Positions 10,277-17,230 of a stretch of 64,000 bases of DNA are shown piece by piece (within the stretch, counting starts at the first letter, position 1; each line of letters begins with the position of its first letter). Origin of the DNA: Lautropia mirabilis. GTDB lineage: Bacteria > Pseudomonadota > Gammaproteobacteria > Burkholderiales > Burkholderiaceae_E. Both the position numbers and the translations under genes were made by a program. Location: contig NZ_LR134378.1 of the NCBI RefSeq assembly GCF_900637555.1, positions 2,986,001 to 3,050,000 of the forward strand, read 5' to 3'. The notes beneath the pieces are model-generated. The model ran no database searches. It was not told the DNA's origin and saw only the letters and a program-made list of their open reading frames with translations.

Positions 10277-12709
10277 TTACTCGTAGCCGTAGTAGCGTAC
10301 TGCCGGCGCCAGGTTGTTGTCGGGCAGGCTGTAGCCAGGAATGTTGCGCGTCAATATACCAAAGGGATCCTGGCCGAAGTGACCAAGCCCGCGCAGGTCG
10401 AACTGGACATAGCCGACGGTGGACGTCTGGCGCGTGGTGGTGACGAAGCGGTGTGCCACGACCCGCACGGCCCAGCAGTCGCGGGCATATTCCACGCCCA
10501 GCAGCCCCTCCACCAGGCCCGGCTTGACGTCGACCAGCTGTCCGGTGGTGAGGTCCTTCTTCAGGAAGGAATAGTTGATGCGCCCCAGCGCCGTCCAGTT
10601 GGCGGCAATGGGCCAGGCCAGCGAGGTGTCCCACTGGGCGTATTCCTTGGACTGGTAGCGCACGCCGGCGTTGAAGAGCTTGCGCCCGCCCGGACGGTAG
10701 CGGTAGCTGAGGTTCAGACGCGGCACGCGCTTGTCGCGGATGGCGTACTGCACGCCGGCGTTGAGGCTGTGCCCCCCCCGGAAGTCGCCGGATGCCGCGA
10801 ACAGCAGGTCGGAGCGGCGGTCGACGCGCACCGGCTGCCCGGGAATGGTGACATCCTGACTGGAGAAGTAGAAGCGCTGGGCCACGGCCAAGCGCAGGCG
10901 CTCGACACCGGTGGCCTGCTCGATCTGGCGTGAGACCAGCGCGGCCGTGAGGTGATCGGCGTCGGCGATGCGATCGTGACCGGTGAAGGAGTTCTCGCTG
11001 AAGAGCTGTGCAAAGCTCAGGTCGGTGGCCACGCTGTCAAAGACGGGGATGTCGCCCTGGTTGCGATAGGGGGTGCGCACATAGAAGAGCCGGGGCTCCA
11101 GTGTCTGCACCGAATCCTCGCCCAGCCAGCGGCTGTCACGCTCCAGCACCAGGCCGGAATCGATGGAGAAGGTAGGCAGCACGCGGGACATCGAACGGCC
11201 GCTTTCGGAATAGCGGTTGAGCGAATAGTGCGTGGCATGCAGACCCACCTTGGGCGTGAGGAACCAGCCGCCACTCTGCATGGGGTAGCTGACCTGCGGG
11301 TTCAGCACCAGTCGCGTGCCTTCCACGGCATTGGGGCGGGGGTTGGCAAACTGGGTCAGGTCCACCAGCGTGGTGACATCGAAGCCATGCAGGTCCACCT
11401 TGTTGTTGGTGAACTGCAGCTGCGGCACCTTCTCGTAGGGCGGCGACGTGCGCGCTTCCAGAATGTTCTGATAGCGGATGCCGCGCACCATCATGTTCCA
11501 GTCACCCACGCTGCGGGTGAAGTACAGCTCGCGCGGCAGCGAACGCTCGGAGGCGTCGATCAGGGTGTTGGAGTAATCGACGAAATAGTTGTCGTCCGAG
11601 ACCCCCTGCAGGTTCCAGGCACCGTTCCAGCCCAGCACGTTGGTGAAGAGGCCGTTGGAATCATAGGAGTGGCGGGAATGGTTGGTGTCGCTGTCGTGCG
11701 GAATGTAGTCGAGCTTGATGTTGCCCTGGGCCGGCCGCGTCAGGAAGCGGAATTCGTTGCCCAGCCGCAGGCCGCGCCGGGTGGTGAGCTGCGGCGTGAC
11801 GGTGAGGTCGTAGTTGGGCGCCAGGTTGAAGTAATACGGCGCGGTGACGCCCAGCCCCGAGCGCGAGTTGACGGACACGGTAGGAAACAGGAAGCCGCTC
11901 TGGCGGGCGTCGTTGAGCGGGAACATCACCACCGGCATGCGCAGCACGGTGTGATCACGCACCTTGAAGCGCGCAGCGCGCCCGTAGCCCTGCGAGCTTT
12001 CCAGGTCCAGATCCAGGCGCTTGGCCTCCAGTCGCCACGCCTCGTCGTCGGGCTTGCAGCTGGTGAAGCTGCCGTTGACAAGCTGCATGAAGCGGTTGCT
12101 GACGAAATCGATGCGATCGGCCTGCCCACGCACGCCCACGGTCGTCAGGTCGTAGGTGGGGGACTGGAACGATCCCCGCCCCGTGTCGAGCTGCAGCTGC
12201 AGGCGCGGCCCCACCACGCGGGTTCCCGCCTGCTCGATGGAGACATCGCCGGCAGCATCGATGCGCTGCTGCTGACGCCAGTATTCGATGCGGCTGGCCT
12301 TGAGCGACGTGCCGATCTTGCGCAGCTCGGCATCGCCCTCGAACACGGTGACCGGCCCCTGCGATGTGGGCTCGGTGGTCATGCGGTCGGCGCTGCCGAA
12401 GACCGGCAGCTCGCGATTTTCCTGCGAGGTGAGCGGCAGGTTGAGCGACGGCGCCAGCTGCAGGGGCACGGGTTCATCGGGCGGTACGGCGCCGAGGGAG
12501 CCGGCTGCCCCCTTGCGACTGCCAGCCGCGAGCGAAGTGGCTGGCCATGCGCCAGACAGTGCCGCCGACAGGGCAAGTGCCAGTGCGGTCAAACGGAAAG
12601 TGCGGTCTGGAAGCGACACGGACAGGGCGGCTCCGATGAGCGGCTGCCGGAATGGGCGGCCGGGTGGGCGGGATATGGGGCGAGATTGTCTATTATAGGG
12701 AGAGCTCAT
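10277..12709 (-). CDS. lptD: LPS-assembly protein LptD
   Basis: LptD is the outer membrane beta-barrel that inserts lipopolysaccharide into the outer leaflet. The 810-residue reading has a signal peptide (LTALALALSAALSGAWP region, cleaved near SLAAG), a periplasmic OstA domain (TVFEGDAELRKIGTSLKASRIEYW) and a C-terminal barrel ending in an aromatic residue. The start is uncertain. The ATG at 12709 overlaps the alternative ATG of the divergent amgK (shared CATG), and a TATAAT lies inside the reading. A GTG at 12619 preceded by GGAG would place the signal peptide close to the N-terminus and may be the true start. Confidence 0.93.
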   Translation of the reverse strand: MSSPYNRQSRPISRPPGRPFRQPLIGAALSVSLPDRTFRLTALALALSAALSGAWPATSLAAGSRKGAAGSLGAVPPDEPVPLQLAPSLNLPLTSQENRELPVFGSADRMTTEPTSQGPVTVFEGDAELRKIGTSLKASRIEYWRQQQRIDAAGDVSIEQAGTRVVGPRLQLQLDTGRGSFQSPTYDLTTVGVRGQADRIDFVSNRFMQLVNGSFTSCKPDDEAWRLEAKRLDLDLESSQGYGRAARFKVRDHTVLRMPVVMFPLNDARQSGFLFPTVSVNSRSGLGVTAPYYFNLAPNYDLTVTPQLTTRRGLRLGNEFRFLTRPAQGNIKLDYIPHDSDTNHSRHSYDSNGLFTNVLGWNGAWNLQGVSDDNYFVDYSNTLIDASERSLPRELYFTRSVGDWNMMVRGIRYQNILEARTSPPYEKVPQLQFTNNKVDLHGFDVTTLVDLTQFANPRPNAVEGTRLVLNPQVSYPMQSGGWFLTPKVGLHATHYSLNRYSESGRSMSRVLPTFSIDSGLVLERDSRWLGEDSVQTLEPRLFYVRTPYRNQGDIPVFDSVATDLSFAQLFSENSFTGHDRIADADHLTAALVSRQIEQATGVERLRLAVAQRFYFSSQDVTIPGQPVRVDRRSDLLFAASGDFRGGHSLNAGVQYAIRDKRVPRLNLSYRYRPGGRKLFNAGVRYQSKEYAQWDTSLAWPIAANWTALGRINYSFLKKDLTTGQLVDVKPGLVEGLLGVEYARDCWAVRVVAHRFVTTTRQTSTVGYVQFDLRGLGHFGQDPFGILTRNIPGYSLPDNNLAPAVRYYGYE
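12691..12697. promoter_or_regulatory. Possible bidirectional -10 element between lptD and amgK
   Basis: The bases TATTATA read as TATAAT on the minus strand (12697-12692) and TATTAT on the plus strand (12691-12696). Either could serve as a -10 hexamer. I find no good -35 at the standard distance on either strand, so this rests on the -10 alone. Confidence 0.35.
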
Positions 12710-12785
12710 GCGCTCCGTGCCGCCCGCTACGGCCTGCTGTCGCTTCCTTCATCACCCCGCCCTTCGGAATTTTCCGGTTTCCACG

Positions 12786-13871
12786 ATGCCTGCCGAACAC
12801 GCCTCCCCCGCCCCCACGCCCGCCGCCCCTGCTGCTGCCCGGGACGATGCCCGGCTGGAAGAACTGAAGACATGGCTTGCCAGCCTGCCGGAAAGCCATG
12901 CCCTGGATGTTGCCACGCTGGCCCCGGCATCGAGTGACGCAAGCTTTCGCCGCTATTTCCGGCTGAAGGCCACCCTGCCTCAGGCGGTCGGCACGGGCAC
13001 CGCCATCGTGATGGACGCGCCGCCCCCGCAGGAAGACTGCCGGCCCTTCGTGCACGCGGCCGAGATCATGGGTGCCGCGGGCCTGACGGTCCCCCGGGTG
13101 CACGCCGCTGATCTGGAGCGGGGCTTCCTGCTGCTGGACGACCTGGGCAACCGCACCTACCTGGCCGAGCTGGACGCAAAGACCGCCCCCAGCCTGTACG
13201 CCGCAGCCAGCGAGGCGCTGGTGAAACTGCAACGCGCCAGCCAGCCCGGCGTGTTTCCCGAGTACGACCGTGAACTGCTGCTGCGCGAGCTGATGCTGTA
13301 CCCGGACTGGTACATTGCCCGACACAAGGGCGTGACGCTGTCCGAGAAGGAAACCCAGGTGCTGCAGCAGGGTTTCGAGAAGATCCTGGCCAACGTGCTG
13401 GCCCAGCCGCGCGGCTACGTGCACCGTGACTATCACAGCCGCAACCTGATGATCCTGGAAGCGCCCCGGCTGCCGGGCGTGCTGGATTTCCAGGACGCCG
13501 TGCATGGCCCGCTCACCTATGACCTGGTTTCGCTGCTGCGCGATGCCTACATCCAGTGGGACGAGGAACAGGTGCTGGACTGGACCATCCGCCACTGGGA
13601 GCGCGCCCGTGCCGCCAAGCTGCCGGTACCGGCCGATTTCAGCGATTTCTATCGGGACTTCGAGTGGATGGGCATCCAGCGCCACCTGAAGGTGCTGGGC
13701 ATCTTCGCCCGCCTCTGGCACCGTGACGGCAAGGACGGCTACCTGAAGGACATGCCGCTGGTGGCACACTATGTGCACGCTGCCCTCAAGCGCTATGACG
13801 AGCTGGCCCCGCTGTGCCGGCTGTTCGAACGCATCGAGGGCATCGACGCCCAGCACCGCTACACGTTCTGA
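12786..13871 (+). CDS. amgK: N-acetylmuramate/N-acetylglucosamine anomeric kinase AmgK-like
   Basis: AmgK phosphorylates the anomeric carbon of MurNAc or GlcNAc recovered from the cell wall. MurU then makes UDP-MurNAc, bypassing de novo synthesis. The 361-residue protein has the aminoglycoside phosphotransferase fold: a HRDYHSRN catalytic loop at 213-220 and the metal-binding DFQDA at 234-238. Its adjacency to murU supports the assignment over a generic phosphotransferase. The start is uncertain: 12786 has no clear ribosome binding site, while the ATG at 12708 has AGGGAGAG ahead of it but adds 26 atypical residues. Confidence 0.85.
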   Translation: MPAEHASPAPTPAAPAAARDDARLEELKTWLASLPESHALDVATLAPASSDASFRRYFRLKATLPQAVGTGTAIVMDAPPPQEDCRPFVHAAEIMGAAGLTVPRVHAADLERGFLLLDDLGNRTYLAELDAKTAPSLYAAASEALVKLQRASQPGVFPEYDRELLLRELMLYPDWYIARHKGVTLSEKETQVLQQGFEKILANVLAQPRGYVHRDYHSRNLMILEAPRLPGVLDFQDAVHGPLTYDLVSLLRDAYIQWDEEQVLDWTIRHWERARAAKLPVPADFSDFYRDFEWMGIQRHLKVLGIFARLWHRDGKDGYLKDMPLVAHYVHAALKRYDELAPLCRLFERIEGIDAQHRYTF

Positions 13872-13940: not shown

Positions 13941-15857
13941 ATGAAAGCCATGCTGCTGGCCGCCGGACGCGGCGAACGGATGCGGCCGCTGACCGACCGC
14001 ACCCCCAAACCCCTGCTGGTGGCCGGTGGCAAGCCCCTGATCGTCTGGCACCTGGAAAAGCTGGCGGCCGCCGGCATCACCGAGGTCATCATCAACCACG
14101 CCTGGCTGGGTGAGCAGATTCCGGCTGCCCTGGGCGATGGCAGCGCCTACGGCGTGCACATCACCTACTCGGCCGAGGGTGAGGCGCTGGAAACGGCCGG
14201 CGGCATTGCACGCGCCCTGCCGCTGCTTACCCAAGGCGAACCTGACAACGCGCCGTTCGCGGTCATCAGCAGCGACGCCTGGAGCGATCTGGACTACGCA
14301 CGGCTGACCGAGGTGGCGCAACGTCTGGCCGCCGGCGAAGGCGACTGCTGGTGCCTGATGGTGGACAACCCCGGACACCACCGGGGCGGGGACTTCGCGC
14401 TGGACAACGGCCACCTGAAACCCGCTGGCACGGCGCACAAGGCAAGCGCGGGAAACAACACGCAGACCGCCACAAACCCGGAAGAAGCCGACACCCTCAC
14501 CTACGCCGGCATCGGTGTCTTCACGCCCGCCATGTTCCGAGACATTGCCGACGGCACACGTGCACCGCTGCGCCCCTGGCTGGAGCGTTCCATCACGGCA
14601 GGCAGGGCCCTGGGTGATCATCATCGGGGGCGGTGGTTCGACATCGGCACGCCGGCCCGCCTGAAAGATCTGGACAGGCTGCTGACGGCCCCCGCCCACG
14701 ACGGTCTGACGGTGCGCATTGACGGCACCGGCCCCGTGGCACTGGCCACGGCGCTCTGGCTGGTGCGTGCCGGCATCCCCCCGGCCTGCATCGCGCTGCC
14801 GCTGGACCGGCCCGCCACCAGCATCCTGCCGAAGGATGCTCCGCGACGGGCCATCGCATTGTCCGAGGGATCGCGGCAGATCCTGGCCCGGCTGATCACG
14901 CTGCCGGCCTCCGGGCGCATCGACTCGGTGGAGATCGTGCAGGCCGGCACGGACGGTCACACCCGCATCGATCGCGAAGACTTTCCGCTGCCGGCGCTGG
15001 GCTGGGTCGTGGTGTGGGAAGACCTCATTGCACAGCTGCACCAGGCCGCCGAGAAGCTGCCCTTTGCCCGGCCGGACGACCCGGCCTTCGCCGATCCCGC
15101 CCTGGTGATCCATGCCGGCGGCATGCCCCCGGCACAATCTCGGGACGACACCGACTTCGACACCCATGACAGCGGCCAGGCCGGCCTGCTGCTCGAGGTG
15201 GCCGTGACCGGCACGGCCGACACCGCCTTCGAGTGCTTCCGCCCTGGCGGCCCGCTGGCCCTGCTGCCCGCCCCGGCTCTGCCCGATGGCCCGCGCTACA
15301 CCGTGGTCTGGAGCGATGCCGCCGAGGCCAGCCGCCGGCGTGCCGCACTGCCGGCCGATGCCCTGGGCCAGGAACTGCGAGAAGCCCTGCGTGCCGCCCT
15401 GGGCCCCCGCCATTGGGGCCGCCATGCCGGACACTTCGGTCCGCTGCGGGTGTGCACACCGGCCGTGGCCGTGCCGCTGCCCCGCGTCCGCCGCCGGCAG
15501 ACCACGACGTCCGGCCAGGTCTGGATCGGCAACGCGGCGCAGATGCTGCATCCGGTTGCGGGCCAGGGGCTCAACCTGGGGCTGCGCGATGCCTTCGTCC
15601 TGGCCCGGGAACTGGGCGATGCCGTCTTCGATACCGGCCTGCCCGGGCCGCACGCCCGCGTGGCACGGGCCCTGGAGGCCCACGCCCGCGCCCGCCTGAC
15701 CGATCGCTGGCTGACCATCCACGGCACCGATCTGCTGTCGACCGCCTTCAGCTGGCCGGCGGCAAGGACGCTGCCGCCGATGCTGCTGAACGCCATGCAT
15801 GTTGCCAGGCCCCTGCGCCTGCCACTGGCGCGCGCGCTGGTGTTCGGGCACCGTTGA
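13941..15857 (+). CDS. Fusion of MurU nucleotidyltransferase and UbiH-family FAD monooxygenase
   Basis: A single 638-residue reading joins two enzymes. Residues 1-250 are a MurU-type uridylyltransferase (LAAGRGERMRPLTDRTPKPL at 6-25; SSDAW at 110-114 with the probable metal-binding Asp) that makes UDP-MurNAc in cell wall recycling. Residues 256-638 resemble UbiH/UbiF ubiquinone hydroxylases, with RAIALSEGS near 303 and GNAAQMLHPVAGQG near 530. The flavin motif GTGPVA (262-267) lacks the last Gly of GxGxxG. In relatives I recall murU and ubiH as separate genes with pepP between them; here pepP is absent and no stop codon separates the domains. Confidence 0.88.
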   Translation: MKAMLLAAGRGERMRPLTDRTPKPLLVAGGKPLIVWHLEKLAAAGITEVIINHAWLGEQIPAALGDGSAYGVHITYSAEGEALETAGGIARALPLLTQGEPDNAPFAVISSDAWSDLDYARLTEVAQRLAAGEGDCWCLMVDNPGHHRGGDFALDNGHLKPAGTAHKASAGNNTQTATNPEEADTLTYAGIGVFTPAMFRDIADGTRAPLRPWLERSITAGRALGDHHRGRWFDIGTPARLKDLDRLLTAPAHDGLTVRIDGTGPVALATALWLVRAGIPPACIALPLDRPATSILPKDAPRRAIALSEGSRQILARLITLPASGRIDSVEIVQAGTDGHTRIDREDFPLPALGWVVVWEDLIAQLHQAAEKLPFARPDDPAFADPALVIHAGGMPPAQSRDDTDFDTHDSGQAGLLLEVAVTGTADTAFECFRPGGPLALLPAPALPDGPRYTVVWSDAAEASRRRAALPADALGQELREALRAALGPRHWGRHAGHFGPLRVCTPAVAVPLPRVRRRQTTTSGQVWIGNAAQMLHPVAGQGLNLGLRDAFVLARELGDAVFDTGLPGPHARVARALEAHARARLTDRWLTIHGTDLLSTAFSWPAARTLPPMLLNAMHVARPLRLPLARALVFGHR

Positions 15858-16153
15858 AGCCCGCCGCCGGACAACGGCCACACCTTCTGGCAGGACGGCG
15901 CGTGCTCACCGCCGGGAGGACAGGCCCCCTGTCCTCCTGTTTCCGGGATGGAACGGACATGGCCGGCCCTGCGCTCTGCGCGCTAGAATGACGATCCCGG
16001 CCGCCGGGAATTCCAGAGCGTGTCGTCGTGTCGACCGGGACAAGCCCGTGGCTTGCGGTATCATCGCGCCCCCGCACCGCCGCCACCGGCGCAATGGTGG
16101 ATCGCTCCACCATCTGCCCGCTCCCGCGTCATCCCTTCGCACTGCCGTCCGCA

Positions 16154-17230
16154 ATGCCCGCCTCCGCCGCCCCGCCCGCCCCCAGTCAGCCCGCGCTGCT
16201 GAGAATCGGTCCGTATGCGCTGCCGCATCGGGCCCTGGTGGCGCCCATGGCCGGCGTCACCGATCGCCCCTACCGGCAGCTGTGCAAGCGCCTGGGCGCC
16301 GGCTATGCCGTCTCCGAAATGGCGGCCTCCAACCCGCGGCTCTGGAACAGCGTCAAGACCTCGCGCCGCATCGACCATGCCGGCGAGATCGAGCCCAAGG
16401 CCGTTCAGATCGCCGGCGCCGACCCCGCCATGATGGCCGAGGCCGCCCGCTTCAACGTCGAACGCGGCGCGCAGATCATCGACATCAACATGGGGTGTCC
16501 GGTCAAGAAGGTCTGCAACGTCTACGCCGGCTCCGCCCTGATGGGGAACGAGCCGCTGGCCATCGAGATCATCGAGCGCGTGGTCAAGGCCGTGCCGGTG
16601 CCGGTCACCGTCAAGATGCGTACCGGCATCGACCCTGACCATCGCAATGCAGTGGCGCTGGCGCGTGCCGCCGAGGCGGCCGGTGCCGTGATGATCACCG
16701 TGCATGGCCGCAGCCGCGCCTGCCGCTACCACGGCCCGGTCGACTACACCACCATTGCCGAGGTGAAGGCCGCCGTGGGCATTCCGGTCGTGGCCAACGG
16801 CAACATCGATTCCCCCGAGAAGGCACGGGACGTCCTGGCGCAGACGGGCGCCGACGCGGTGATGATCGGCCGAGCCGCCCAGGGACGGCCCTGGATCTTC
16901 CGCGAGGTGGATCACTATCTGGCCCACGGCACCCGCTTGCCAGCCCCCACCTGGCGGGAGGTGCGAGACCTGCTGCTGGAGCACCTGAACGACCACTACC
17001 GCTTCTACGGTGAGTTCACCGGCGTGCGCACTGCCCGCAAGCACATCGGCTGGTACCTGCAGGCACTCTGCGGCGACCGACAACCGGACGAAGCCACCGA
17101 GGCGCTTCGACACGCCATCAATGACTGTGAGCAGGCCGACGGACAGGTCCGCCTGCTGGAACGCTACTTCGCCGATCGGGCGTCCCTGCTGGACACCGGC
17201 ATCGATCAGGGAGGAACCCAACCATCATGA
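16154..17230 (+). CDS. dusB: tRNA-dihydrouridine synthase B
   Basis: DusB reduces a uridine in the tRNA D-loop to dihydrouridine, using FMN. The 358-residue protein contains PMAGVTDRPYR near the N-terminus, INMGCPVKKV with the probable catalytic Cys115, and VHGRSRACRYHGPVDY. The ATG at 16154 gives the best fit to the family; in-frame ATGs at 16094 and 16028 would add unlikely sequence, and none has a good ribosome binding site. A TAGAAT hexamer at 15985-15990 may be a -10. The stop overlaps the fis start (ATGA), which gives the common dusB-fis operon. Confidence 0.93.
   Translation: MPASAAPPAPSQPALLRIGPYALPHRALVAPMAGVTDRPYRQLCKRLGAGYAVSEMAASNPRLWNSVKTSRRIDHAGEIEPKAVQIAGADPAMMAEAARFNVERGAQIIDINMGCPVKKVCNVYAGSALMGNEPLAIEIIERVVKAVPVPVTVKMRTGIDPDHRNAVALARAAEAAGAVMITVHGRSRACRYHGPVDYTTIAEVKAAVGIPVVANGNIDSPEKARDVLAQTGADAVMIGRAAQGRPWIFREVDHYLAHGTRLPAPTWREVRDLLLEHLNDHYRFYGEFTGVRTARKHIGWYLQALCGDRQPDEATEALRHAINDCEQADGQVRLLERYFADRASLLDTGIDQGGTQPS

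Follow-up and report, generated by a model that had tools for sequence, protein, structure and literature searches.

In Lautropia mirabilis, murU and a ubiH-like gene are read as one continuous open reading frame. We regard this as a genuine and recent fusion, at the level of the species or strain, that arose by deletion and whose halves have no functional link (probability about 0.7). The fusion is probably a local accident and not a new system.

The window analysed here is a stretch of 64,000 nucleotides, positions 2,986,001 to 3,050,000 of a genome assembled as a single contig of 3,172,010 bases (99.87% complete). The uninterrupted 638-codon frame joining MurU to a UbiH-type monooxygenase, as described in the initial annotation, was recovered in the window and in the whole-genome copy as the same single, stop-free frame (Table 1), and profile matches supported the naming of both halves in outline. 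Judged from the sequence, two conserved enzymes sharing one frame is beyond chance, and the short junction is the only chance element. An AlphaFold prediction for the fused protein (pLDDT 76, pTM 0.56) was good for MurU; in the UbiH half many blocks lay at 45–70, too weak for reading FAD binding or how the domains face each other. A search of viral contigs found no relative.

Table 1. Features of the fused gene and its surroundings. Positions are those of the window except in the last row, where they refer to other loci of the same genome.
Feature	Position	Strand	Basis or remark
Fused gene murU-ubiH-like	13941..15857	+	638 aa, ATG to TGA, no internal stop
MurU half (predicted N-acetylmuramate alpha-1-phosphate uridylyltransferase), residues 1-249	13941..14687	+	NF045761, structures, motifs
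Junction, residues 250-257	14688..14711	+	Stop codon and 47-286 nt spacer here in relatives
GTG codon 258	14712..14714	+	The one common start codon directly at the beginning of the UbiH half
UbiH/UbiF-type flavoprotein monooxygenase-like half, residues 258-638	14712..15854	+	Profiles; 7mwa, 4k22
GxGxx[GA] FAD-binding motif, GTGPVA	14724..14741	+	Agrees with class A monooxygenase N-terminal motif
DG-motif site, IHAGG, Asp absent	15108..15122	+	Alignment
C-terminal UbiH signature GNAAQMLHPVAGQGLNLGLRDA, intact	15528..15593	+	18/18 aligned
amgK (APH-family kinase, MurU partner enzyme), upstream neighbour	12708..13871	+	Pfam PF01636, 127 bits; collinear in relatives
dusB, downstream neighbour	16028..17230	+	Pfam PF01207, 325 bits; collinear in relatives
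Two additional hydroxylases of the UbiH family (one is a UbiM)	L002:1306-2682; L004:943-2160	-; +	Own genome

The N-terminal half is, by sequence and predicted fold, a complete MurU domain with predicted activity. NCBIfam NF045761 (MurU) matched residues 1–246 with 285.7 bits, above its cut-off of 250; phmmer matched the MurU structures 4y7t (E = 1e-62) and 8hhd (E = 7e-61), and Foldseek aligned the predicted fold with 4y7u at a TMt of 0.90. The nucleotidyltransferase landmarks AAGRGERMRPLT, PKPLL, LETAGGI, GDF and WxD[IV]GT, which we picked from the alignment, were present in all 17 aligned sequences, including the fused gene. AmgK and MurU jointly yield UDP-MurNAc in a salvage route known from Pseudomonas, as described in sections of PMC5371407. 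The half thus resembles known MurU (4y7t, 8hhd) in its full-length domain, its score above the cut-off, its fold (TMt about 0.90) and its adjoining amgK; it differs in bearing a C-terminal flavoprotein and in an insert at about residues 163–184, of low predicted confidence, which some Lautropia relatives also have. Such inserts are of low complexity, rich in Ala, Pro and Thr and variable in length in the MurU proteins of G003, G006 and the fused gene, and a similar one lies inside the conserved enzyme encoded by the G001 ubiH (L037:3096-4508).

The C-terminal half is best described, from its profile matches and motifs, as a divergent UbiH/UbiF-type flavoprotein. Its nearest solved relatives by sequence were UbiH 7mwa from A. 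baumannii (E = 2e-13) and UbiI 4k22 from E. coli; Foldseek matched both, at a TMt of only about 0.42 from a weak model. With UbiH and PRK06996 hydroxylases it shares the GxGPV and GNAAQ-LHPVAGQGLNLGLRDA signatures, and with the UbiH of sister genera the same locus adjoining dusB; unlike them it lacks a start codon of its own and the DG-motif Asp, and its scores miss each of the curated NCBIfam cut-offs (NF005421, 194 versus 450 bits; TIGR01984, 156 versus 392; TIGR01988, 154 versus 224.65). Pfam FAD_binding_3 was passed narrowly, over the C-terminal motif (25.6 versus 22 bits). Unfused Lautropia UbiH proteins also miss the TIGR01988 cut-off, and this model matches most of the genus, the fused half included, in two pieces that leave the middle unmatched.

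GTGPVA had been read in the initial annotation as an altered flavin motif. An alteration tied to the fusion was not borne out, since G-x-G-P-V-[AGS] is kept in 18/18 aligned family members, fused or unfused, and the exact GTGPVA occurs in five unfused Lautropia genomes. The later UbiH motifs are intact, as had been claimed: the GD-type C-terminal motif is present in its UbiH form, and GNAAQ.LHPV..QG[LM]NLG[LF]RDA is kept in 18/18. Class A flavoprotein monooxygenases are defined partly by a DG motif with Asp, in place of which the fused protein has the I/V-H-A-G-G form. The residue is A or G in seven other Lautropia, G in G023 and D or E in the remaining 9 of the 18; among the nine Lautropia UbiH sequences, G or A replaces Asp in eight, and only G005 has D. 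Most Lautropia UbiH proteins have lost this Asp and leave the TIGR01988 middle unmatched, yet fully keep the C-terminal FAD signature. On these sequence features, the Lautropia UbiH branch may be a hydroxylase whose function has shifted, irrespective of the fusion.

A suspected decay of the oxygenase half found no support in the trees of eight Lautropia genomes. The terminal branch of the fused-gene UbiH (0.172) was the third shortest of the eight, its mean identity was mid-range (Lautropia UbiH mean identities, 58–66%, a level at which saturation of synonymous sites is expected), and the MurU branch (0.206) was mid-range or shorter; no accelerated divergence was seen in either half. Because GTGPVA is ordinary for the family and the UbiH half shows no such acceleration, decay linked to the fusion is unsupported, and because the departures of the UbiH half are common to unfused Lautropia, they predate it.

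The seven other Lautropia loci with both genes keep the order lptD(-), amgK, murU, ubiH-like, dusB, as do most of the sister-genus loci examined, where a gap parts murU from ubiH; the more distant G043 and G050 were partial within the stretch taken. The names lptD, fis and purH at this locus are presumed by us, from recall, on the basis of sequence. The sister-genus gap measures about 1.4 kb, and its ORFs carry AMP_N plus Peptidase_M24 (aminopeptidase P) in 8 of 9 cases, with AMP_N also in the ninth gap (L052, G014). AMP_N was found in 54/74 family genomes and in 0/9 Lautropia genomes. The placing of pepP between murU and ubiH in relatives, also stated in the initial annotation, therefore holds for the family and fails for the genus, and it is through the loss of pepP that the two genes are adjacent in Lautropia.

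Among the nine Lautropia genomes, this one carries the fusion, seven have both genes apart, and G005 could not be judged, its contig having no murU and only about 0.4 kb ahead of the ubiH match. Between the stop codon of murU and the R[IV][DE]G motif, which is conserved, lie 170 nt in G001, 47 in G002, 286 in G003, 227 in G004, 106 in G006, 183 in G007 and 214 in G008, and all three relative frames of murU and ubiH occur across these seven. G007 was considered as a second fusion on account of a listed 745-aa open frame for both pieces, and was rejected because a TAA lies between them in the DNA. Separate genes at this junction in relatives had been named beforehand as evidence against the fusion; they were found in 7/7 Lautropia holding both genes, and here they limit the fusion to this species or strain without refuting it. 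A search of genome contigs for an independent copy gave 20 loci, four of them Lautropia (G004, G003, G007 and G006) and none of the same species; this genome and its close neighbours may have been excluded from that search.

The loss of pepP is not confined to Lautropia. In G428, from another genus of the family, AMP_N is absent, and a murU of 233 aa is followed by one TGA, a short stretch and then ubiH in the same frame, a state close to the same fusion that, read from sequence, shows the route. Three further family genomes (G009, G024 and G430; L088, L089 and L090) have neither AMP_N nor ubiH at the locus, where murU is followed by dusB, and the g9 genomes G016 and G035 lack pepP and keep murU and ubiH separate. 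This comparison indicates that pepP loss recurs and that fusion is its rare end state. No other stop-free match over both halves was found among the matches listed for the 74 family genomes, among those listed (down to E = 3e-60) for 399 genomes of the order, with three candidates scored per genome, or at E ≤ 1e-66 among 369 genomes of the class.

The fusion could also be real with its UbiH half riding on MurU as a passenger, either inactive or repurposed, which agrees with our reading as to the fusion itself and which we consider possible, if clearly the less probable of the two. The missing DG-motif Asp, the unmatched TIGR01988 middle and the scores below the TIGR01988 cut-off throughout the genus speak for it. 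From the missed curated cut-offs and the three family genomes without ubiH between murU and dusB, the UbiH half may be dispensable, and the ubiH-like gene may be so in part of the family. Another ubiH in the genome, a question raised in the initial annotation, was sought, and two other UbiH-family proteins were found, which also favour a passenger: a UbiM, at 521.8 bits against a cut-off of 420, and a hydroxylase resembling PRK07608, which scored 310.6 bits to TIGR01988 (cut-off 224.65). Coq7, sought as an alternative hydroxylase, was found in 0/9 Lautropia genomes. The UbiM of Neisseria meningitidis, expressed in E. coli, hydroxylates all three positions according to portions of PMC5069965, and with UbiM and a second hydroxylase encoded elsewhere, the divergent UbiH half may be partly redundant in this genome. 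Against a passenger stand the GxGPV and C-terminal signatures kept in 18/18, the open frame without an accelerated branch, and changes that precede the fusion and are common to unfused Lautropia. E. coli UbiH acts within a soluble assembly that comprises five Ubi enzymes together with UbiJ and UbiK, as parts of PMC8854274 describe. An added domain at the N-terminus would not necessarily block function in such a complex.

A sequencing or assembly error, by which a wrong base near a C-run joined two closely spaced, separate genes on paper, is unlikely. The linker between the two domains is eight residues with no spacer. A run of five C lies at about 14689–14693, and both other frames carry stops at or close to the junction, so that one miscalled base at this point would split the frame into two genes; their separation in 7/7 Lautropia relatives also fits an error. 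However, no true frame break was found where 92 ORFs of relatives cover 42,125 bases of conserved coding sequence in the 64,000-nucleotide window, despite 142 homopolymer runs of five or more, in a scan whose codon-GC filter could mask a true break in a gene whose composition is unusual. The first scan flagged 38 pairs, 34 with a frame change, most of which looked like out-of-frame shadow matches at gene borders. Filtering by codon-position GC gave 126 coding-like ORFs, of which 92 were used, and left three pairs; one proved to be in the same frame, and the other two were a neighbouring gene matched out of frame (second-piece GC3 0.36 and 0.34). By the rule of three, our arithmetic gives an error rate below about 7e-5 per base, or below about 0.4% per 60-nt junction. 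The completeness of the single-contig genome argues against an error as well. So does the start that a split UbiH half would have: after residue 252 the first ATG comes only at codon 395, and no purine-rich site was found upstream of GTG 258, for which reason separate translation of UbiH from an internal start was also dropped. The junction may carry a strain-specific change, limited to the one genome read.

That the fusion is functional, coupling or co-localising cell-wall sugar salvage with ubiquinone synthesis, is very improbable. Loss of pepP was followed by murU and ubiH coming together in at least two lineages, but the genes are still separate in all such cases but one, the listed matches from family and order and the class search at E ≤ 1e-66 held no other stop-free fusion, and some relatives keep murU without ubiH at the locus. 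To our knowledge, no biochemical step joins the activities of MurU and UbiH, and we know of no substrate that they share. We give still less credence to the UbiH-family domain, with its lost DG Asp and diverged middle, being a redox-sensing or FAD-binding regulator of MurU that links peptidoglycan recycling to the respiratory state.

Under the preferred reading of an accidental fusion, a Lautropia ancestor would have lost pepP from the order amgK-murU-pepP-ubiH-dusB-fis-purH, the step that the comparison of loci displays, leaving murU and ubiH adjacent and in one direction. A further small deletion would then have taken the murU stop, the spacer and the ubiH start, producing the in-frame join. 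The product would be a single polypeptide of about 68–70 kDa, in which the N-terminal MurU would uridylate MurNAc-1-phosphate from the upstream AmgK and a tether of about eight residues would hold the UbiH-like flavoprotein. Each half most likely folds and works on its own, and the tether would have no metabolic meaning. A ubiquinone precursor may still be hydroxylated by the UbiH half; this is the least certain step, because the half falls within a divergent Lautropia branch and two other UbiH-family proteins are encoded in the genome. Same-strand neighbours can fuse by losing the stop and spacer between them, and the present case resembles such fusions in its conserved gene order and its in-frame join after loss of the intervening gene; it differs in that the pair is metabolically unrelated and occurs in one genome only.

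A literature search on the murU-ubiH pair, covering fusions and the pepP-ubiH operon, found nothing, and the only study found to name both MurU and UbiH is reportedly a transposon screen (PMC7038268); the fusion is probably undescribed. It offers a small and clear case in which the loss of an operon gene lets its neighbours fuse by chance, with one family showing all states: pepP present, pepP lost with the genes apart, both genes in the same frame with one stop between, and the genes fused. It also cautions that a fusion alone is not ground for inferring a functional link. If expression is confirmed, the fused gene would test whether UbiH, with a 27-kDa domain at its N-terminus, can function inside the complex that makes ubiquinone.
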